Shown in pieces: positions 5,926 to 29,833 of a DNA stretch of 64,000 nt. Every line of letters begins with the position of its first letter. The first letter of the stretch is position 1. The translations under genes were made by a program, and so were the position numbers. A model generated the notes under the pieces. That model was not told where the DNA came from and did not search any database. It worked only from the letters and a program-made list of their open reading frames with translations. Source of the DNA: Dehalococcoidales bacterium (GTDB taxonomy: Bacteria; Chloroflexota; Dehalococcoidia; Dehalococcoidales; Fen-1064). The stretch covers positions 1,430,405 through 1,494,404 of the forward strand of contig CP070842.1 in NCBI GenBank assembly GCA_020342155.1, in the 5' to 3' direction.

Positions 5926-8900
5926 TCTATCCGCTTCACTCCCAGCTTTATTTCGTGGCCTGATAGCTTGTAGCCTTCGGTAAAGAAGTCCTCTTCCAGA
6001 ACGCCTTCAACAAGCTCGCGTGATAGTGTCTCCTGCTTGATGTAGTCGGCCCAGTCCTGCACGACCTGCTTGACATAAGAACCACCATCGTAATACGTTG
6101 TGATGTGGTCGGCAATATCGAATCCAGCCGAGCGGCGTATATTCTGCAATCGGTGGACTATCTCCCGCGCCAGCCCTTCCGCGGCCAGTTCCGACGAGAC
6201 GTCACAGTCCATTGCCACCAGGATCCCTCCCTCCGAGCTAACGATCAGGTTTGGTTTGTCGAGTTCCTCTTCACTATCGGCGAACTCGATTGTCTTGGTA
6301 TTAAGCTCTTCAAGCACCTGAGGTGACAGCCTTTCTAGGCCCTCCTTGTCCTGTCTTGAGCCTGCTTTGACAATTACTCTGGACAGCGGCTGTCGTACCT
6401 TGATTCCTGCCTGACTGCGGGCTGCCCGACCCAGGCTCGAAACCTTCATGGCCAGCTGCGTATCGGCAGAGAGCTGCTCATTAATCATGGCTTTGTCCGC
6501 CACCGGAAAATCGGTGAGGTGAACACTGTCTGGTACCTCCGGGAAGACGGAACAGACCAGGTTCTGGTAGAGTTCCTCGGCGAGGAAGGGCGTGAACGGG
6601 GCGAGCAGCTTAGCCAGCGTTACCAGGCAGTGGTAAAGTGTGCTGTGGGCGGCGAGCTTGTCAGCGTCACTCTCACTCTTCCAGAAGCGTCGCCGGCTCC
6701 TGCGGACGTACCAGTTGGACAGCCCGTCAACAAAGGTCTCAATCTTGCGTCCCGCCCCGGTCGGGTCATAGTTCTCCAGCGCGGTATCAACATCCCTGAC
6801 GAGCTGGTTGAGCTCGGACAGTATCCAGCGGTCAAGCTCCGAGTACTCTAACTGGCTATCTTCTGCACTAGGGGTGAATTCATCGATATTGGCATAAGTG
6901 ACGAAGAAGGAGTAGACGTTCCATAACGTCAGCATAAAGTGACGGGTTATGTCCGCCAGTATCGTATCGGAGTAACGGCGCGAGTTACCCGGCGGTGCGG
7001 AAGTGTACAGGTACCAGCGTAGTGCATCCGCACCATATTTATCAATCACTTCCCATGGCAAGACCTTGTTCGCCTTAGTCTTGCTCATCTTCTCACCTTT
7101 ATCATCAAGTATGTGCCCGTGGCAGATGACGTTCCGATAGCAGGGACGGTCGAACAGGAGGGTTGATATGGCGTGCAGGCTGTAAAACCAGCCCCGGGTC
7201 TGGTCTATGGCCTCGCAGATGTAGTCAGCCGGGAATCTCTCGTCTTTAAGCATAGTCGTATTCTCAAAGGGGTAGTGGTACTGGGCGATAGGCATCGCTC
7301 CAGAATCGAACCAGGCATCGATTACCTCCGGCACGCGCCGCATCTCACCGCCGCAGTCGGGACATGCGAACGTCATCTCATCGACAAAGGGCCGGTGCAG
7401 GTCAAGCTCTCTGCTCATTCCAGTGGTGCCCCTCTGTTCCAGTTCACTAACACTACCAACGCATTCATGTTTACCGCAGGACGGGCAGTTCCAGACGGGC
7501 AGGGGAGTTCCCCAATAGCGTTCACGCGAAAAGGCCCAGTCGACGTTGTTTTCCAGCCAGTCGCCGAATCGACCGTACTTGATATGCTCCGGGTACCAGT
7601 TTATCTCACTGTTTCCCCTGATAAGGCCTTGTTTAACGGCCGTCGTCCTGATGTACCAGGTCTGCTTGGCGTAATACAGCAGGGGAGCCTCGCAGCGCCA
7701 ACAGAACGGATAGGTGTGGCGGACGGTCTCACTGCGAAAGAGCAGTCCACGTTTCTCAAGGTCTTCAAGTACCATCGGGTCGGCATCCTTGACAAATTTG
7801 CCGGAGAAGGGATAGCTCCCGATGATGTTACCTTGCAGGTCAACATTATGGACGAAGTCGAGATCATTGTCCTGCCCTGCCTGGTAATCGACCTCGCCAT
7901 AAGCGGGGGCGATATGAACAATACCGGTGCCATCCTCCATAGAGACGAAGTCGGTGGTAATAACGCGGTAGGTCAGGCCCTCGTCTGGCTCCTGCACAGG
8001 CAGGCCAGTACCCTGCTGGAACCGCCTTCGGTCTACGTCAAATTTGTGAGGATTAAAAAGCGGTTCATAGGCTACACCGACCAGTTCGCTTCCCTCGAAT
8101 TTCTCGATAACGCTGCTACCGTCGAGTCCGGTAGCCATCAACCGGGCCGATGCCATGATGAGGTACTCATTATCGACATTAACCGCGGCGTATTCAGCAT
8201 CGTCTGCCACGGCCAGGGCGGTATTACCCGGCAGCGTCCACGGCGTCGTTGTCCAAGCCAGGAAATAGGCGTCCCCGCCGGCGACCAATTCCCGTAGTCT
8301 TTCGGGAAGACTACCGTTAGCACCGGCTATCTTGAACTTGATGTATACCGAGGGGTCTTCGGTATCCTCTTTATAGCCCTGGGCAACCTCGTGGGAGCTC
8401 AGTGAAGTACCGCAACGAGGACAGTGTGGTGTAACCTTATAACCCTGGTAGACCAGACCTTTGTCCCATATCTGTTTGATCACCCACCAGCAGGTCTCGA
8501 TGTATTCGTTCTTCAGGGTGATATAGGAGTTTTCCATATCAACCCAGTAGCCAATACGCTCCGTTAAGACTTCGAACTCCTTAATATAACGGTAGACACT
8601 CTCACGACAGCGGGCATTGAACTGCTCGATGCCATACTCCTCAATCTGCCCCTTACCGGTGAAGCCGAGCTCTTTCTCCACCTCCAGTTCTACGGGGAGC
8701 CCGTGAGTGTCCCAGCCGCCGATACGTGGTGCGTAGTAGCCTTTCATCACTTTGTAGCGAGGGATAACATCCTTGAAGATAGGTGGCATCACAAAGTGAA
8801 TGCCGGGACTGGCGTTGGTGGTAGGCGGACCTTCATATAAGGTGAAGCGGGGGCCACCTTCGCGTGCCTCAACACTTCGGATGAAAGTGTTGTTCCTCTG

Positions 8901-23022: not shown

Positions 23023-23084
23023 CGATATTAGCTTCAGTTTGAACTTGATTATATTATAAGTATCTGTATTTTATACCCACATCG

Positions 23085-23107
23085 ACATCCCGATGTTTGT
23101 TCAATAG
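23085..23107 (+). repeat. Cassette-type repeat, copy A (core only)
   Basis: ACATCCCGATGTTTGTTCAA and the bases after it are identical over 22 bases to the 3' core of copy C. The upstream half of the repeat is missing or decayed. Confidence 0.7.
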
Positions 23108-23207
23108 CTTTTCTATTCTCGCTGACTTCGCACGTTTATGGTGGTATTGACTTTGCTTCCAATAGTCCTATTGATTGGTCATGTAGGAAAAGTCAACTGA
23201 AGTGAGG

Positions 23208-23236
23208 TTGACAGAAGTGATCATATACAGTAATAT
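23208..23236 (+). promoter_or_regulatory. Sigma70-type promoter of the PKD-domain gene
   Basis: TTGACA at 23208-23213 and TAATAT at 23231-23236 are 17 bases apart. Transcription would start near 23243, giving a leader of about 155 bases. Confidence 0.75.
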
Positions 23237-23242
23237 CCTGTG

Positions 23243-23397
23243 CGTACAATAATTTACGTATCGTAATAATACTTAACTTGTGCTTTGGGGGGCTTAGAAG
23301 CACTACCTGTATTTGGACACTTGGGTAGAGCAGAGCCAATAGTGAAACCGACCTGAAATATGGTCGGTTTTTGGTTTTTACAAAGGAGGCAACGGAG
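23243..23397 (+). promoter_or_regulatory. Structured leader ending in an intrinsic terminator (possible riboswitch or attenuator)
   Basis: Between the promoter and the ribosome-binding site the leader can fold into a nested element: GGCT (about 23290) with AGCC (about 23335), and inside it CTACC with GGGTAG closing TGT/ACA. A clear terminator follows at 23345-23379, only three bases before the AAAGGAGG site. This is the layout of a transcription-attenuating leader. I could not match it to a riboswitch class I know. Confidence 0.5.
23345..23379 (+). terminator. Leader terminator before the PKD-domain gene
   Basis: AAACCGACC (23345-23353) pairs perfectly with GGTCGGTTT (23362-23370) and is followed by TTGGTTTTT. 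It lies between the promoter and the start codon of the downstream gene. Confidence 0.8.
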
Positions 23398-25956
23398 ATG
23401 AAAAGCGATGTAAAGGTCGGAGTACAAATTGTTCTGGCACTGGTATTAGCCTTGTCGGGCATACTGAGTTCAGCCACGGGAGTCCGTGCGGAAGAACCGG
23501 ACGATATCGTCCTGGCTACTTTCGCAACTACCCTGAGTTACAACCAACCAGGAAACGATTTCACCAATGGTGAAGTCATTGGCAGTAGAGGATGGTGGAA
23601 CTCTATTGAGAACCGTTCAGATGAGGCGGTTATGGACCTTACCTTGGATCTTAATAGCGAGTTGACACTTGATAACTTCTCCGTACCCCCGGAAACAATG
23701 GGACCATCGACCTATAGCTGGACTTTTGGTACTCTTCCTGTTGGAGCAACGATCCCCAATATTGTTTTCAATGAGCAGAATCCCTCTCCCGTTTCGTATA
23801 TTCCCGGATTCGACGCCTCACGGACAGTGGACGTGCCTGTTTTTACGGAATCGGGAACTCAGATTCTTACTGTAACTGTTGACCCCCAGGAAACAATAAA
23901 TTCCATAATGGTACAGGTCACTATACCGCCAAACCAAATTGCGAATACAGCCTATTCTGATTGGGCTGTTACTGACGATAATGGCCCGGTAGAACACTCT
24001 GTTTACCAGGTGGGAACCTCGATAGTTATTAGTCAAATGTCCCCTGATGCAGGAAGCATTTATACTTTCAAAGTCTGGATTGAGGTCGATCCCAACGTTG
24101 CCAAGACAGAGTTTATTCCTCAGGTCGGTGTTACTGTTAATAAGAACATGGTTTTCGGTCCTGCAGGTACCAGCAGCTCTCTTATCCATGAAGTAGACGG
24201 ACTTGGTACTTGGACCGTGAGTGCTGGAGAAGAGCATCCATGGAACGTGCAAGAGTTTGAAAATAAGTCTGTGGTTTTTCCCTCAAGTATTTATGCATTA
24301 GGTGAAATATCAGGTTCTGTGCAAAACGATACTGGCACCCCGATAAACGGTGCTACTATCGTAGCTTTCCCGGTCACGCCTGGTCTAATACGTGTCACTT
24401 CATCGGGAGAGGACGGCAGATATCTTATGGAGAACCTGCCAATTGGTAACTATTATATGCGGGCCATCGCTACAGAATATATTAGCCAGTGGTACGATGG
24501 TGAGGATTTCCTAGCAAATAGAGACATGGTTACAGTAATATCTGGCGATGTTTCCGACATCAACTTCTCACTCAGACCCGATGCTGGCTCTATGTCGGGT
24601 TACGTATATGAGGCTGACGGTTTGACTCCCGTCAATCGGGCTTTTGTGGACATGTACACCTACGACGGAGCCACCTGGATACTGGCTTACAGGACAGCAT
24701 CACAACCTGACGGAAGCTACTTGATGCCCTCATTGAAGCCGGGTGATTATAAGGTCAGAGCCTGGACCGGCGGTTATTTAGATGAGTGGTACGAGGAAGG
24801 ATTTTCTGACGCTGATGCTATCCTGGTAACAATAACCGCGCTTGCTGAAACCAGCGGCATCAACTTCAGCCTTAGTCAGCTGTATGAGACACCTGCCGGA
24901 GACAACATCATTGTTAATGATATCTATAATGAAGTTACAGTGACATTTGCTACGGTAATCGAGGACGGCAGCACCAGTATCAATGTAGCTGAATATGATC
25001 CCAGTGATGGTACGATTGAGTTCCGTGTCGTGGGTAAATACTACGACATCTCTACCGATGCGTCGTACGATGGAACAATTACTATAACAATCACTTACGA
25101 CGATACAGGTTTGCAGAAGCCGGAGGAGAATCTCAAACTCTGGCACTGGGATGGCACTCACTGGTCCGCTGTTGATTGCGTGATTGATGAGGAGGAAAAT
25201 ACTATAACTGCGATTGTAGATAGTCTATCCTGGTTTGCTGTCGGTGAGTTCAATGATTTCCCGGTAGCTGAAGCTGCTGTCACTACGTATCTAGCTCCTG
25301 TTGAGGCAGAGTTCATCTTTGATGGGAGCAACTCGATTGACCCAGACGGAATCATAGTTACTTACGAATGGGATTTTGGGGATAGCAACGGTAGTGGTAT
25401 CCTAGAGACCCCGAGTGTAACGCATTCTTATGCTGAGCCCGGAGTCTATAATGTGATATTGACTGTCACCGATGATTCAGGTGCCCAGTCAACTTCTGCT
25501 GTGATGGTTGTTGTTTACGATCCGGAGGGTGGATTCGTCACAGGTGGCGGTTGGATTGACTCACCAGAAGGAGCCTACACACTTGATCCTTCTCTCACAG
25601 GAAAAGCTACCTTTGGGTTTGTCTCCAAGTATAAGAAGGACGCAACTGTTCCCACTGGGCAAACCGAGTTTCAGTTTAAGGCAGGCGACTCAAACTTCCA
25701 CAGCTCATCTTATGATTGGCTTATCGTGACTGGTTCAGATTACGCCAGGTTCAAAGGTACCGGCACCATTAATGGTGAAGGAGAATACAAATTCCAGATT
25801 TGGGCTGGTGATGGTACAGGGGTTGACGGTGCCGACACCTTCCGCATCAAGATTTGGATGGAGAATGAGTCCGGTGACGAAATTGTTGTTTATGACAATG
25901 GTATGAATCAACCGATAGGCGGAGGTAACATCGTCGTCCATACCAGCCAGAATTAA
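23398..25956 (+). CDS. Exported multidomain protein with carboxypeptidase-regulatory-like and PKD domains
   Basis: An 852-residue exported protein. Residues 1-30 are a signal peptide (hydrophobic core then SATGVRAEE). An N-terminal beta-rich region of about 270 residues follows. Two carboxypeptidase-regulatory-like beta-sandwich repeats come next (GEISGSVQNDTGTPINGA; SMSGYVYEADGLTPVNRAF, each with DGxYLM). After a further beta domain there is a PKD domain (YEWDFGDSNGSG, THSYAEPGVYNVILTV). The C-terminal domain starts GFVTGGGWIDSPEGAY, a module found at the end of other secreted proteins. ATG 23398 has AAAGGAGG 10 bases upstream. Probably a cell-surface or matrix protein. It is preceded by an attenuator-like leader and flanked by copies of the cassette repeat. 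Confidence 0.85.
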   Translation: MKSDVKVGVQIVLALVLALSGILSSATGVRAEEPDDIVLATFATTLSYNQPGNDFTNGEVIGSRGWWNSIENRSDEAVMDLTLDLNSELTLDNFSVPPETMGPSTYSWTFGTLPVGATIPNIVFNEQNPSPVSYIPGFDASRTVDVPVFTESGTQILTVTVDPQETINSIMVQVTIPPNQIANTAYSDWAVTDDNGPVEHSVYQVGTSIVISQMSPDAGSIYTFKVWIEVDPNVAKTEFIPQVGVTVNKNMVFGPAGTSSSLIHEVDGLGTWTVSAGEEHPWNVQEFENKSVVFPSSIYALGEISGSVQNDTGTPINGATIVAFPVTPGLIRVTSSGEDGRYLMENLPIGNYYMRAIATEYISQWYDGEDFLANRDMVTVISGDVSDINFSLRPDAGSMSGYVYEADGLTPVNRAFVDMYTYDGATWILAYRTASQPDGSYLMPSLKPGDYKVRAWTGGYLDEWYEEGFSDADAILVTITALAETSGINFSLSQLYETPAGDNIIVNDIYNEVTVTFATVIEDGSTSINVAEYDPSDGTIEFRVVGKYYDISTDASYDGTITITITYDDTGLQKPEENLKLWHWDGTHWSAVDCVIDEEENTITAIVDSLSWFAVGEFNDFPVAEAAVTTYLAPVEAEFIFDGSNSIDPDGIIVTYEWDFGDSNGSGILETPSVTHSYAEPGVYNVILTVTDDSGAQSTSAVMVVVYDPEGGFVTGGGWIDSPEGAYTLDPSLTGKATFGFVSKYKKDATVPTGQTEFQFKAGDSNFHSSSYDWLIVTGSDYARFKGTGTINGEGEYKFQIWAGDGTGVDGADTFRIKIWMENESGDEIVVYDNGMNQPIGGGNIVVHTSQN

Positions 25957-25985
25957 TAGTATTTCGCAAACTTGTTAATGTTCGG

Positions 25986-26012
25986 GGGAGCCTCTTCGGA
26001 GGCTCCCTCTCT
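25986..26012 (+). terminator. Terminator after the PKD-domain gene
   Basis: GGGAGCCTC and GAGGCTCCC pair around a TTCG tetraloop (25986-26007), followed by TCTCTGC. It lies 29 bases after the stop codon. Confidence 0.85.
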
Positions 26013-26034
26013 GCTAATATATCACTTAATAGTA

Positions 26035-26098
26035 AAGACAAACGGTATCATCCACGAGTACGCATGGCTGGACAGACATCCCGATGTTTGTCCAGTGG
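26035..26098 (+). repeat. Cassette-type repeat, copy B
   Basis: About 64 bases related to copies C and D, with ACGCATGGCTGGACAGACAT in the centre. The hairpin arms are GGACAGACATC and GATGTTTGTCC. The TTC-to-TCC change restores a G-C pair, while the A-to-G change keeps a wobble, so the hairpin is maintained. Confidence 0.85.
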
Positions 26099-26104
26099 CG
26101 GCTT

Positions 26105-27208
26105 TCACTTAAAGGAGTCACATTTTGAAAGTGTATTAATAACTTTCAGCATCATCCTCACACCTTTAACGTGATAACCCTGCTGATTTAGGCTACCGAT
26201 AAAATATGCATCCATCCCTGGGTTGTAGAATAAAAATGATCCAATGAAACCGGCATTACCCCATGAATTGAGCTTTTTAGGCATAAATACGGGTATAGTT
26301 TTTATATTCATAATTCCATAGCCGTAATCGATTCCGAAGAAAAATCTGGCCCAATCCTTCATCTTCTCGAAAGTATCTACACTTATAATGACGTGTTTAA
26401 CCAATGCTTTCATGAATTTTAGTAAATCGTCAGATGTGGACACAATTCCTCCACCGGCATAGTCAATACTTAGACTTCGATGTTGTGTCACGTCAATCCT
26501 GGTTTCGCCTATATATATGTTGGCAACGGGATGATCACTTTTTATTAGAGGTTCGGAATGCTGGACCAGATACGAATGATTCATCTCAAGAGGTTGAAAA
26601 ATGTATTGCTTCAAAGCAGCTTGAAAAGGCACAGACGTTATTTTTTCAATAATTAATCCTAAAAGATGATATCCTGTGTCAGAATAATGAAACCCTTTCC
26701 CGGGAGGAAAATGTGAATTTAAATTCTCTTTGGACCATTGAATCACCTCTCGGGGTGTCCAGAAATGGGAGGGTTCACGCACAATCTGTTCAAGCATAAG
26801 TGTAGCATGCTTAGGTTTATCTCCAAAATAGTCATGGATTCCCGACGTGTGATTAAGCAAATGTCTTATTCTTATCTGGTTTGTATAGTCTCTTCCCTTA
26901 ACAACGTGTAGGTTTTGTAAAAGGCCTTCATCAAGATAAGGGGTGATCGTATCTTCGTAAGAAAGCTTTCCTTGCTCAACCAAGACACCAGCAAGAACGG
27001 ATGTAAACAGTTTGCCTACACTTGCCACATAGTATGGTTGGTTTTCATTAGCAGGTATATTATTTGTTGAACCTTCTGCAATATTCAGGTGTATACCGAG
27101 TTTATCAGAATGCACCAATAGATATGCGTTATGTATCTTGTGGTCTTTCTGAACAGTATTTCTAAATATCTTCTCAATGGATTTTTGAGTATTCTTTATA
27201 TCCACCAT
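26105..27208 (-). CDS. Serine beta-lactamase-fold hydrolase (class C / PBP4* type)
   Basis: A 367-residue member of the beta-lactamase/transpeptidase-like family. The catalytic SxxK motif is SVGK (in YYVASVGKLFTSVLAG, about residues 57-60). The YxN-type motif appears as YSD in FHYSDTGYHLLG. No signal peptide is evident, so it may be cytoplasmic, as in many esterase-like members of this family. It is the only minus-strand gene in the repeat-bounded array and lies between copies B and C. Substrate unknown; esterase, peptidase or amidase are all possible. The sequence is richer in A+T than the housekeeping regions. Confidence 0.85.
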   Translation of the reverse strand: MVDIKNTQKSIEKIFRNTVQKDHKIHNAYLLVHSDKLGIHLNIAEGSTNNIPANENQPYYVASVGKLFTSVLAGVLVEQGKLSYEDTITPYLDEGLLQNLHVVKGRDYTNQIRIRHLLNHTSGIHDYFGDKPKHATLMLEQIVREPSHFWTPREVIQWSKENLNSHFPPGKGFHYSDTGYHLLGLIIEKITSVPFQAALKQYIFQPLEMNHSYLVQHSEPLIKSDHPVANIYIGETRIDVTQHRSLSIDYAGGGIVSTSDDLLKFMKALVKHVIISVDTFEKMKDWARFFFGIDYGYGIMNIKTIPVFMPKKLNSWGNAGFIGSFLFYNPGMDAYFIGSLNQQGYHVKGVRMMLKVINTLSKCDSFK

Positions 27209-27275
27209 TCCCCTAACGTTTTAAACAAATCGAAATTTTACTGACACAATATGATTATCTACACATCTGAATAGA

Positions 27276-27340
27276 AAACGCAAATGGTATCGCCCACGAG
27301 TACGCATGGCTGGACAAACATCCCGATGTTTGTTCAATAT
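27276..27340 (+). repeat. Cassette-type repeat, copy C
   Basis: About 65 bases, nearly identical to copy D. The 3' half folds as GGACAAACATC / GATGTTTGTTC. It lies between the start of the hydrolase gene and the start of the first GNAT gene. Confidence 0.9.
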
Positions 27341-27371
27341 CGATTGACCCACTGTATTATAATAGAGCTGA

Positions 27372-28232
27372 ATGGATGTTAAGACTTACACAAAGGCGGC
27401 AGATTTTCTTTCTGCAGCTTATAATATTCTTCAATCAGATGAAGCTCGTTATGGCCTCATCTACGGTATCGCACGTAGGGTAGAAGTGAATCCGTACCAC
27501 TATGGCAATGAGAACCCGTGGTTCTGCATTGTGAATGATAAAGATGGTATTAGTACTCTTGCTTGGCGAACTCCTCCATACCAACTTGGTCTAGCCTGGT
27601 ATACCGGTAACGCAGAAGAAGCCGTTTCATTGTTAATTAAAGCTGTCCGAAAACGCTGGAAGGAAATACCTGGTGTCGTCGGACACAGGGAAGTTACGGA
27701 CTCATTTGCAGAGAGGTGGTCTTATACCTATGGCGTTCCTATAGAATCAACGATGGCCCAACGTATCTACCGTCTTGATTCTGTTAATGATGTTCCTTTT
27801 ACATCTGGTCGTATGCGTCTGGCAACGTTAGCAGATAAAGATCTGGCTACCAGTTGGGTACGTGCTTTTAGCATCGATATCGGAGAATATGATCGCAATC
27901 CGCCGAACGAAGACATCACTCCACGCATTGAGATGGGTGAGATATACTTATGGGAGGATAATGGGAAGCCTGTCTCCATGGTTGGAAAAGCTCGCTCTAC
28001 CGAACATGGCATAACAATTGGCCCCGTATATACACCTCTAGAACTCCGACGACATGGTTACGCCACTGCTTGTGTAGCCCATGTCTGCGGGGAACTCCTG
28101 AAGAGTGGATACGAATTCTGCACGCTTTATACGGATTTGAGTAATCCCACATCCAACTCAATCTATATGAAGGTTGGATTTAAGCCAGTCTGTGATTCCG
28201 TGCAGTACGGCTTTTCGGTACCAAACAGATAA
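27372..28232 (+). CDS. GNAT-family N-acetyltransferase
   Basis: A 286-residue protein with a C-terminal GNAT domain. ITIGPVYTPLELRRHGYATA (about residues 215-234) is motif A with its R-x-x-G-x-A acetyl-CoA loop, and LYTDLSNPTSNSIYMKVGF is motif B. The N-terminal 130 residues form a degenerate second GNAT-like half, as in other double-GNAT proteins. No clear ribosome-binding site precedes the ATG. A TATAAT lies 9-14 bases upstream, so transcription could be nearly leaderless. The acceptor is unknown. It is one unit of the repeat-bounded array. Confidence 0.85.
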   Translation: MDVKTYTKAADFLSAAYNILQSDEARYGLIYGIARRVEVNPYHYGNENPWFCIVNDKDGISTLAWRTPPYQLGLAWYTGNAEEAVSLLIKAVRKRWKEIPGVVGHREVTDSFAERWSYTYGVPIESTMAQRIYRLDSVNDVPFTSGRMRLATLADKDLATSWVRAFSIDIGEYDRNPPNEDITPRIEMGEIYLWEDNGKPVSMVGKARSTEHGITIGPVYTPLELRRHGYATACVAHVCGELLKSGYEFCTLYTDLSNPTSNSIYMKVGFKPVCDSVQYGFSVPNR

Positions 28233-28238
28233 GACCTC

Positions 28239-28305
28239 ACAGAAAAAGCAAACGGTATCGTCCACGAGTACGCATGGCTGGACAAACATCCCGATGTTTG
28301 TTCAA
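28239..28305 (+). repeat. Cassette-type repeat, copy D
   Basis: About 66 bases, seven bases after the GNAT stop codon. It is the best-preserved copy: ACAGAAAA at the left, TACGCATGGCTGG in the middle, and hairpin arms GGACAAACATC / GATGTTTGTTC at the right. Confidence 0.9.
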
Positions 28306-28509
28306 TGGCTCCACTATCACCTTTGACTTCCCACCTTAGCAATGCTATTCTTTGCGCACGACACTTGGATGCTACCTAAATTTGTCTACTCCAGAGGCTA
28401 GAAAATCGGTAATACCAGTTTAATGATTTGTATCCTTTATAAAGTATAAAGCATATCATGGGAGTAGTGCTTATATATTTCGGGATGCCCTTCAAGGAGG
28501 TGCGGAACA

Positions 28510-28917
28510 ATGGGATTTATTAAAACGCTTGTTTTGTATTTTTCTACACTCGCGGTATGTTTTGGCATAGACCTGATATGGCTAGGCTTGATGAATTCTC
28601 GTTTTTACAAGCCCCAATTAGCCGGATTGATGAGCAACAAAGTAAACTGGCTTCCGGCTATATTGTTTTATACACTTTTCATAATTGGTTTGCTCTTATT
28701 AGTTGTACTACCTGCCGTTGACCGTGGCTCTTGGATACGTGCGATGCTGCTAGGAGGACTTTTTGGGATGGTAGCCTATGCTACTTATGACCTCAGTAAT
28801 CTTGCTACAATCAAGAATTGGCCAGTCGTGGTAACAATCGTGGACATCGTGTGGGGAACCACCTTGTCAGCCACATTAGCTTCAATAAGCTATTTTATAG
28901 CTAAAGCGTTAAGCTAG
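28510..28917 (+). CDS. DUF2177-family membrane protein
   Basis: A 135-residue protein with four predicted membrane segments. The pattern FGIDLIWLGLMNSRFYKPQL, then WLPAILFYTLFIIGLLLLVV, GMVAYATYDLSNLATIKNWP and TIVDIVWGTTLSATLAS, matches DUF2177. Function unknown. AAGGAGGTGCGGAACA precedes the ATG. The gene lies between repeat copies D and E. Confidence 0.85.
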   Translation: MGFIKTLVLYFSTLAVCFGIDLIWLGLMNSRFYKPQLAGLMSNKVNWLPAILFYTLFIIGLLLLVVLPAVDRGSWIRAMLLGGLFGMVAYATYDLSNLATIKNWPVVVTIVDIVWGTTLSATLASISYFIAKALS

Positions 28918-29010
28918 GTAAAAATGTATTAGACTAATATTAGACCAATATGTAACACTACCTCAGTCAAATATAGAAAACAGTCCTCTTTTCTCTGTGT
29001 ATAATCCCAC

Positions 29011-29066
29011 AGAAAAACTAAAAGATATCAAATATATATACGCATGGCTGGATAAACATCCCGGTA
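29011..29066 (+). repeat. Cassette-type repeat, copy E (diverged)
   Basis: About 56 bases sharing ACAGAAAA at the left and TACGCATGGCTGGATAAACA in the middle. The right half differs (CCCGGTAAAG) and no longer forms the hairpin. It lies about 94 bases after the DUF2177 gene. Confidence 0.75.
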
Positions 29067-29131
29067 AAGTTTTGTGCGTAAGATGAAATCTGATATATTT
29101 AATAACCCACACTGGGGACAAACATATTAGA

Positions 29132-29596
29132 ATGACAAATAATCTAACAATAGTATCGTTGAGAGATTTCCCTGATTTCAGACAGAATCTGCTTGATTAT
29201 GTTGAGATCAACTGGAAGGGGGTATTGAAACCTTTCACTCAGGTAATAGACGAGTTGTTTTCCACAACCAAAGAACTCCCTAAATGTTTTATGCTATCCA
29301 AAGAAAATTATATTATCGGATTCTACCAATTGATAGAGCAGGAGCTTATTGAAAGAAAAGATCTCTCTCGCTGGATTACTTGCGTATTTGTTGACGAGCG
29401 CGAACGAGGTAAACGTCTGAGTTCTTTTTTACTTGAACATGGTAGAGCAGAAGCAGGGAAACTCGGCTATTCCAAAGTCTATCTTACAACTGATCACATT
29501 CAGTTCTACGAGAAATTCGGATTTAGAGAGATAGGCTTGGACAAATTCATCTGGGGAAGACCCACAAAAATCTATGAACATGGTACTATCAGGTAA
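29132..29596 (+). CDS. GNAT-family N-acetyltransferase (small)
   Basis: A 154-residue single-domain GNAT protein. WITCVFVDERERGKRLSSFL (about residues 85-104) carries the R-x-x-G-K-x acetyl-CoA loop. LGYSKVYLTTDHIQFYEKFGF is the second half of the fold. The acceptor is unknown. No strong ribosome-binding site is seen. It is rich in A+T and lies between repeat copies E and F. Confidence 0.85.
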   Translation: MTNNLTIVSLRDFPDFRQNLLDYVEINWKGVLKPFTQVIDELFSTTKELPKCFMLSKENYIIGFYQLIEQELIERKDLSRWITCVFVDERERGKRLSSFLLEHGRAEAGKLGYSKVYLTTDHIQFYEKFGFREIGLDKFIWGRPTKIYEHGTIR

Positions 29597-29617
29597 CATT
29601 ACATCCTAAACATTAAA

Positions 29618-29678
29618 TGAGAACGGTATTAGATATTTATACGCATGGCTGGACAAACACCCCGATGTTCGTTTAATG
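29618..29678 (+). repeat. Cassette-type repeat, copy F
   Basis: About 60 bases beginning 21 bases after the GNAT stop: GAGAACGGTATTAGATATTT, then TACGCATGGCTGGACAAACA. The hairpin has two mismatches. The reading frame shared by the other copies stays open here too, with a synonymous CAT-to-CAC change. Confidence 0.8.
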
Positions 29679-29833
29679 ATAGCCGTTTAAACACTTCTCA
29701 CAACCCTATCTACTAAGTATTACGCAGTATGAAACACCCTGCCAGATTTTTTATGGTATTTACACCGTTCGTACCTTTATGATTATTAGTGTAAATGTAA
29801 AGGTTGGTGTATCAGATAGGCGGGGGTGTTTCG

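Follow-up and report, generated by a model that had tools for sequence, protein, structure and literature searches.

The window, by which we mean the whole 64,000-nucleotide stretch of DNA analyzed, contains between 23090 and 29661 a series of five units of 601 to 2991 bp with one gene each, set apart by six copies of a repeat, five complete and one a half only (Table 1). As the preliminary description had stated, all copies run in the plus direction and each interval encloses one unrelated gene, encoding, in order, a PKD/CarboxypepD_reg protein, a serine hydrolase, a GNAT, a DUF2177 protein, and a second GNAT. Its count of at least six copies of about 60 bp holds for five of them; the sixth, at 23085, is a right half only, ACATCCCGATGTTTGTTCAATAGC behind a different left half. 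The exact 13-mer core, TACGCATGGCTGG, is present in every full copy, compared with a chance expectation of about 0.002 in 64 kb; only exact matches are informative, since the tally of 13-mers with three mismatches is at chance level.

Table 1. Features of the array and its boundaries, in window coordinates (LE, left end; RE, right end)
Feature	Position	Strand	Remarks
Left array boundary: flank and type-3-like end (TGTATTTTATACCCACATCGACATC)	23050–23089	+	conserved as far as the core in sister species
Unit 1, 2991 bp: LE, promoter, c-di-GMP-II riboswitch, PKD protein gene, terminator-like hairpin, RE	23090–26080	+	
LE with promoter module	23090–23166	+	CTGACT 23122–23127, 17 bp, TATTGA 23145–23150
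Cyclic di-GMP-II riboswitch aptamer, unit 1	23279–23362	+	Rfam RF01786, 67.7 bits, gathering 53.5
Gene, PKD/carboxypeptidase-regulatory-like secreted protein	23371–25956	+	PF18911 8.6e-20, PF13620 6e-18
Terminator-like hairpin GGGAGCCTC-TTCG-GAGGCTCCC, 5' of RE	25986–26007	+	read off the sequence
RE copy 1, right end of unit 1	26030–26080	+	core at 26059; last base of ACATC 26080
Unit 2, 1242 bp: antisense serine hydrolase gene, RE	26081–27322	+	
Gene, beta-lactamase-family (beta-lactamase-fold) serine hydrolase	26105–27208	-	PF00144 8.1e-41
RE copy 2	27272–27322	+	core at 27301; last base of ACATC 27322
Unit 3, 968 bp: GNAT gene 27372–28232, RE	27323–28290	+	PF00583 3.9e-7
RE copy 3	28240–28290	+	core at 28269; last base of ACATC 28290
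Unit 4, 770 bp: LE with promoter, DUF2177 gene 28510–28917, RE	28291–29060	+	PF09945 2.8e-42
Unit 4 promoter	28323–28328, 28346–28351	+	TTGACT, 17 bp, TATTCT
RE copy 4	29010–29060	+	core at 29039; last base of ACATC 29060; right arm of next unit degenerate
Unit 5, 601 bp: GNAT gene 29132–29596, RE	29061–29661	+	PF13508 1.2e-9
RE copy 5, final one of the array	29611–29661	+	core at 29640; last base of ACATC 29661
Right array boundary: CCGATGTTCGTTTAATGATAGCCG	29662–29760	+	flank conserved in sister species

Ends and core of the repeat

Each unit opens with a short left end (LE, about 16–20 bp) and closes with a conserved right end (RE, ~50 bp), and the two meet at the junction ACATC|CCGATG. An imperfect inverted site, CTGGACAAACA-TCCCGA-TGTTTGTTCAA, is made up of the core and its inner arms; its geometry is about 11-6-11 bp, and in the copy at 26068–26095 it is a perfect 28-bp inverted site except for one mismatch. 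Similarity among the copies 3' of the core extends only to about +19, and the right arm is absent or degenerate after RE copy 4. Two further end types have only the core in common with the RE/LE ends. Matches to an LE profile were obtained in unit 1 (23083–23166, E = 4e-18) and unit 4 (E = 4e-21), both of them copies with which the profile had been seeded. Derivation of the repeat from a coding sequence (frame YAWLDKHPD) was rejected because many copies contain stops in that frame; no Rfam family was found for it, the Rfam matches being only riboswitches, tRNA, and rRNA, and viral contigs gave no exact match.

The preliminary description had further proposed that the arms are a selected hairpin. 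This proposal is not supported: across 128 sites drawn from many genomes, the arms exhibit no covariation, with a paired fraction that at almost all positions equals the value expected from shuffling, and the sites fold only weakly as DNA (z-scores of -1.2 to -2.0). We prefer to read the arms as a pair of inverted half-sites supplied by two adjoining units.

Distribution and exchange of units

The source genome carries about 20 RE copies spread over about ten loci. The RE is present in 29 of 61 relatives and throughout the class Dehalococcoidia, and none was detected in the sampled Chloroflexota beyond that class. Across many genomes, neighboring sites within 3 kb have the same orientation in 50 of 51 pairs (p = 5e-14), at a median spacing of 892 bp, and only 7 of 125 junctions fall within ORFs, versus 79% expected. 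Exactly one ORF is found in 34 of 51 units, and 48 of 63 ORFs are directed toward the RE. The units measure 0.3–3 kb, none includes an integration module, and their cargo is accessory (MazF-type pairs, HicAB-type pairs, GNATs, lipoproteins); gene-less units of ~80 bp were seen at four places, with an RE on one side and a type-2 end on the other.

Our comparison covered one genome per species and no strain-level pairs. At the orthologous locus of a sister species (G001) the flanks are about 84% identical and the contents wholly different, with boundaries at ACATCCCGAT and CAAACAYCCCG, i.e., at the core. On the left, the same ~40 bp are found in G001 (L092, about 5950–5990), with divergence directly 3' of ACATCCCGAT; on the right, the same flanking sequence is preceded by a different (type 2) cassette end. 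Units are also found in new surroundings. A ~375-bp unit whose two edges, TCCCGATC and GGACAAACATCCC, lie at the core is ~90% identical in genomes of two different families (G012 and G037) with unrelated contexts on either side, and a ~350-bp unit occurs as two copies within G001, in different contexts and again with both edges at the core. A two-gene unit of 1.5 kb recurs in G000 and G002 at 92% identity, with surroundings that differ; the G002 copy begins at the RE junction, and the core is no longer present at the start of the G000 copy. The 1.2-kb unit common to G072 and G202 has a left edge without a recognizable core. At one site G000 and G002 have a unit in common and G001 has another, the flank being conserved from base 2 past the junction. 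Left and right junction halves change partners at the core, and a 72% nucleotide-identity relative of the unit 2 serine hydrolase gene adjoins an RE in G038. No base-resolved empty site was found: G002 is without one G000 insertion (locus L034), but the intergenic DNA has diverged, and among the ROK orthologues screened only G001 was near enough.

Two observations had been named beforehand as ones that would refute a cassette-like array. The first, copies scattered without a link to gene boundaries, is borne out only in that the copies occupy about ten loci, whereas their link to gene boundaries is strong; the second, a fixed gene order, is contradicted by the sister species (not strains), in which the same flanks enclose different genes.

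Search for a recombinase

The window contains no integrase, as had been noted, and enzymes of the IntI type are also missing genome-wide; IntI (TIGR02249) was above cut-off in none of 21 RE-bearing genomes. The tyrosine recombinases of the source genome are XerC, XerD, one divergent enzyme, and one remnant. XerC/XerD-type genes were present in all 14 RE-bearing genomes surveyed, and no other full-length tyrosine recombinases are shared among RE-bearing genomes. We found no recombinase consistently linked to the arrays. In G273 and G098 a small XerA-like tyrosine recombinase adjoins an RE. This XerA-like family (G001 C1:60187) was tempting because of these two neighbors and a remnant in the source genome; it was rejected, its members lying at tRNA genes and most of them not near an RE. 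Also rejected was a serine recombinase, absent from 5 of 14 RE-bearing genomes (G098, G072, G012, G038, and G034). The Y1 transposase (RAYT, PF01797) that would mark a REP/RAYT system had no match in the source genome.

Interpretation and alternatives

The units share their ends, follow one another head to tail, lie between genes, and are found in new contexts, and their content is replaced between fixed flanks. We consider it likely that this locus consists of mobile gene cassettes in an array, each organized as LE, gene(s), and RE and moved by a trans-acting recombinase. The earlier cassette-like reading is upheld, since the copies are tied to gene boundaries and co-oriented in clusters and the gene content is not fixed between sister species. 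In the little-studied class Dehalococcoidia, individual genes seem to be mobilized as small cassettes with a common recombination site, arranged head to tail as in integrons, although both the enzyme and the known site of integrons are missing. We infer that a recombinase acting in trans would insert cassettes, probably in circular form, at the core, be it that of a junction already in place or that of a core-like chromosomal site, and that the same enzyme would excise them again, such that arrays may be assembled, shuffled, and emptied like integrons. In our view, a tyrosine recombinase would act on the inverted half-sites in double-stranded form, and direction would be set by the 40 conserved bp of the RE side; the enzyme would be encoded outside the array, the candidates being host XerC/XerD or the integrase of another element. 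Our best guess is a trans-acting tyrosine recombinase, possibly host XerC/XerD; the enzyme remains unidentified.

Integrons, the textbook case of gene-cassette capture, depend on a single enzyme and a single type of folded site. More tentatively, and with slightly more doubt than confidence, we suggest that the Dehalococcoidia possess an independent, class-wide gene-capture system, whose cassette arrays evolved separately from integrons and which has its own double-strand site (three end types, core ACATC|CCGATG) and either an unrecognized recombinase or a new use of XerC/XerD. No published description of such a system was found in the literature searched. A second system with integron logic and different parts would mean that cassette arrays arose more than once; it would account for some of the turnover of accessory genes in Dehalococcoidia, and would give a defined repeat for counting cassettes in any related genome or metagenome.

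One form of the trans-acting recombinase explanation is that the units are mobilized by XerC/XerD in the manner of the Acinetobacter pdif modules, with the core as a dif-like site for host Xer. The 11-6-11 bp geometry and the sole common occurrence of full-length XerC/XerD favor this form, and pdif modules are likewise small gene modules with inverted half-sites of about 28 bp and no recombinase of their own. We nevertheless judge it rather unlikely: the core does not obviously resemble canonical dif arms (a pattern search of the source genome gave no clear chromosomal dif for comparison), and the sites keep a single orientation, whereas neighboring sites in dif modules alternate. Further differences from pdif modules are an extra conserved 40-bp arm on one side and the chromosomal location of the arrays.

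It is less probable still that the units are MITEs or mobile insertion cassettes, i.e., passenger genes between transposon ends that are mobilized in trans by a DDE transposase and form arrays by repeated insertion at each other's ends. Passenger genes between short ends and mobilization in trans are common to both, the LE and RE are briefly similar in the inverted sense, and gene-less units of ~80–90 bp and about ten loci per genome would fit; however, the arrays are directional and the two ends very unequal. Bases at the ends of shared units and at the array flanks are mostly fixed CC or CCGATG (judged without a base-resolved empty site) rather than a variable target duplication, which was not seen. 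Neither a transposase, among the best 25 of 96 Pfam families of 55 unit proteins, nor an autonomous copy was observed.

Serine recombinase sites are centered on a dinucleotide, and the palindrome here has CC at its center, which would suit the integration of islands in tandem by a large serine recombinase. Such islands, with direct repeats between tandem elements, are known in the same class, at ssrA of Dehalococcoides (DsiB; PMC3146451). We regard this origin as very doubtful: the enzyme is missing from the five RE-bearing genomes listed above, and the Dehalococcoides islands are large, carry an integration module (dsiB), and occupy one gene, unlike our small, module-free units. The RE at many loci argues against a single-gene target such as ssrA, which was itself not located.

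A true integron remnant (CALIN), with attC sites diverged past recognition and IntI lost from the lineage, is barely tenable. Dehalococcoidia arrays do match sedentary integrons in layout, cassette size, and toxin-antitoxin and GNAT cargo, being head-to-tail arrays of mostly single-gene cassettes with one site per cassette, with sites similar within one host and differing between types, and with content that differs between relatives; they meet the integron criterion of directional small-cassette arrays with variable content. Unlike integrons and CALINs, they have no IntI and no conserved single-strand fold or arm covariation, are many, small, and at different loci, and include some cassettes with their own promoter, riboswitch, and terminator. 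The classical boxes are absent, as first reported: GTTRRRY is at the expected position in 0 of 128 sites (nearby in 1 of 128), and RYYYAAC is at chance level (13 observed, 11.7 expected). Least credible is a fixed intergenic RNA or terminator repeat serving merely as a homologous recombination site, which the position near gene ends and a possible hairpin fold would allow, but which lacks both an Rfam family and covariation and conflicts with halves that swap partners at the core and with units in new contexts whose edges both lie at the core.

Unit ends and repeat copies

An integron-like cassette system with a site of its own is the best explanation of the window array. Repeat searching confirmed the plus-strand copies claimed in the preliminary description (see table); the genes between them are PKD/CarboxypepD_reg, beta-lactamase-family in antisense, GNAT, DUF2177 and GNAT. 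For the copy proposed at 23085, the right half (ACATCCCGATGTTTGTTCAATAGC) was borne out and the remainder of the repeat was not. Alignment of the copies reveals a strongly conserved right end (RE), from about -53 to -1, followed by a conserved core, ACATC|CCGATG. Conservation is weaker to the right of the core (TTYGTYCARTGGT, up to about +19), because this side forms the left end (LE) of the following unit or part of the flank. A promoter module (CTTTGACTTCCCACGTTTACGGTG-TATCCT, 17-bp spacing) is present in some LEs, in the window in those of units 1 and 4. Two further ends, type 2 (GACTCTTTTTCGTCCAAGCTGTTATAGTACAAGACGAACAAACATC, 12 matches) and type 3 (GTTACAAAATGTATGTTTTGTAAC...TACACTCACGTCGACATC), have only the core in common with RE; by sequence, the window array is bounded on the left by what resembles a degenerate type-3 end.

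Gene-less ~80-bp units, consisting of a type-2 end alone, lie immediately past an RE at L088 5136-5215, L093, L032 and L039. Several units with different mature domains have an LE promoter, a lipoprotein signal and a poly-glutamate linker in common, as if this 5' module were reused. At L033 10525-14150, a unit adjoins a 23S rRNA fragment and a stretch of Ns, and its ~60-bp junction is present again, inverted, 3.4 kb off, which may reflect an assembly break.

Coordinates of repeat copies, unit features and tyrosine recombinases (L, loci with coordinates of their own)
Feature	Location	Strand	Remark
Repeat copy	window 26019-26099	+	repeat search; 13-mer TACGCATGGCTGG exact
Repeat copy	window 27261-27341	+	repeat search; 13-mer exact
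Repeat copy	window 28229-28309	+	repeat search; 13-mer exact
Repeat copy	window 29011-29063	+	repeat search; 13-mer exact
Repeat copy	window 29600-29680	+	repeat search; 13-mer exact
Cyclic di-GMP-II riboswitch	window 23279-23362		
Cyclic di-GMP-II riboswitch	L089 559-642		
Cyclic di-GMP-II riboswitch	L123 3110-3191		
Unit with common 5' part	L037 7614		LE promoter/lipoprotein/poly-glutamate
Unit with common 5' part	L035 6725		same
Unit with common 5' part	L040 9264		same
Unit with common 5' part	L088 5322		same
Unit with common 5' part	L247 8477		same
XerC	own genome		
XerD	own genome		
Divergent 382-aa enzyme	own genome 370.8 kb		
Remnant, small XerA-like	own genome 1507.7 kb (L231 9702-9992)		at tRNA gene
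Small XerA-like	L232, L205, L234, L235, L236		at tRNA genes

Distribution and cargo

The RE system is real and widespread in one bacterial class. Matches to a 72-base query lie in clusters, at ~ten loci of the own genome (a single contig of 2.30 Mb), and an RE sequence model built from 18 copies found matches in 29 of 61 relatives (maximum 26 per genome). Within the class, the model matched 20 of 294 genomes at E<=1e-5. A sample of 400 genomes from across the phylum gave 8 with matches, every one of them Dehalococcoidia. Exact-pattern matches in named genomes fell in Dehalococcoidia/Dehalococcoidales MAGs (W156, W589, S120, CSMAG_2721, Zod_Metabat.163 and CSMAG_541); a lone Lactobacillus record is probably a chance match, and the viral contigs searched with the repeat gave no match. 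In five genomes from several families (L036, L087, L108, L109, L114), REs lie ~2-7 kb from dnaN, which suggests a hot spot close to the replication origin.

In 50 of the 51 neighbouring pairs <=3 kb apart in the fetched loci, both copies run in one direction (binomial p 4.6e-14), and the median distance between neighbours is 892 bp. Junctions fall inside ORFs of >=110 aa in 7 of 125 cases, versus 79% for random positions. Since loci were fetched for holding copies, these statistics describe copies, not genomes. Most of the 51 units hold one ORF (34) or two (11), four hold none, and 48 of 63 ORFs point towards the RE. The clearest array, six REs within 6 kb of genome G069, includes consecutive units (L188 15295-17510) with two PemK/MazF-type and one HicAB-type toxin-antitoxin pairs, as in sedentary integrons; the HicA and HicB matches are slightly below the Pfam cut-off. 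Cyclic di-GMP-II riboswitches open three different units with large surface-type proteins, so that c-di-GMP control travels with cassettes or recurs in them.

Evidence for movement

Comparative evidence supports mobility of the units; catalysis and circles are inferred. The window and its sister species (G001) have ~84% identical flanks, a ROK kinase to the left and a hydrolase-sirtuin cluster to the right, but entirely different contents in between: left homology stops at ACATCCCGAT, right homology starts at CAAACAYCCCG, and at this right boundary the G001 array closes in a type-2 end. G012 and G037, genomes of different families, share a ~375-bp unit containing a small ORF at ~90% identity; its edges lie at TCCCGATC (left) and GGACAAACATCCC (right), with unlike sequence outside on both sides. 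G001 holds a ~350-bp unit twice, with different neighbours and edges at the core. G000 and G002 share a two-gene SPFH unit at 92% identity in unlike surroundings, the G002 copy starting at an RE junction. At a locus compared in three species (L031/L121/L100), the flank is kept from base 2 past the junction, and the G001 unit differs from that in G000 and G002; at L034, a G000 insertion is missing in G002.

The site and its inferred enzyme

A compensatory change had been taken as a sign of selected hairpin structure; across 128 sites, however, arm pairing does not exceed the level with right arms reshuffled. No alternative helix stands out in the repeat sites, and folding energies are unremarkable. 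Given the lack of excess pairing and the ordinary folding, we read the palindrome as putative inverted recombinase half-sites on double-stranded DNA, and the 11-6-11 geometry fits a tyrosine recombinase. The anatomy does not exclude a serine enzyme with a CC-centred 2-bp overlap, but serine recombinases are missing in 5 of 14 RE-bearing genomes.

The mode of working resembles that of integrons and CALINs (IntegronFinder 2.0, PMC9024848; attC study, PMC3053210); the array is not an integron member, because tests for IntI (0 of 21 RE-bearing genomes at the curated cut-off), for attC boxes and for the fold all came out negative. In dif modules (PMC6449649) the site geometry is similar to the RE-LE junction, but neighbouring RE sites show no alternation of orientation, and the Dehalococcoides ssrA islands (PMC3146451), though of the same class, are unlike RE cassettes in size, site and enzyme. 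Literature linking integrons or cassettes with Dehalococcoidia left the system undescribed (most subscription journals and all preprints were outside scope).

XerC/XerD-type genes occur in all 14 RE-bearing genomes surveyed, and G012 shows nothing beyond them, although it is only 77% complete. The enzyme remains unidentified, and XerC/XerD in this role is an inference. The XerA-like family adjoins an RE in G273 and G098 and was rejected, as elsewhere it is a tRNA-site integrase; its gene is broken in the own genome (L231) and intact in the sister species.
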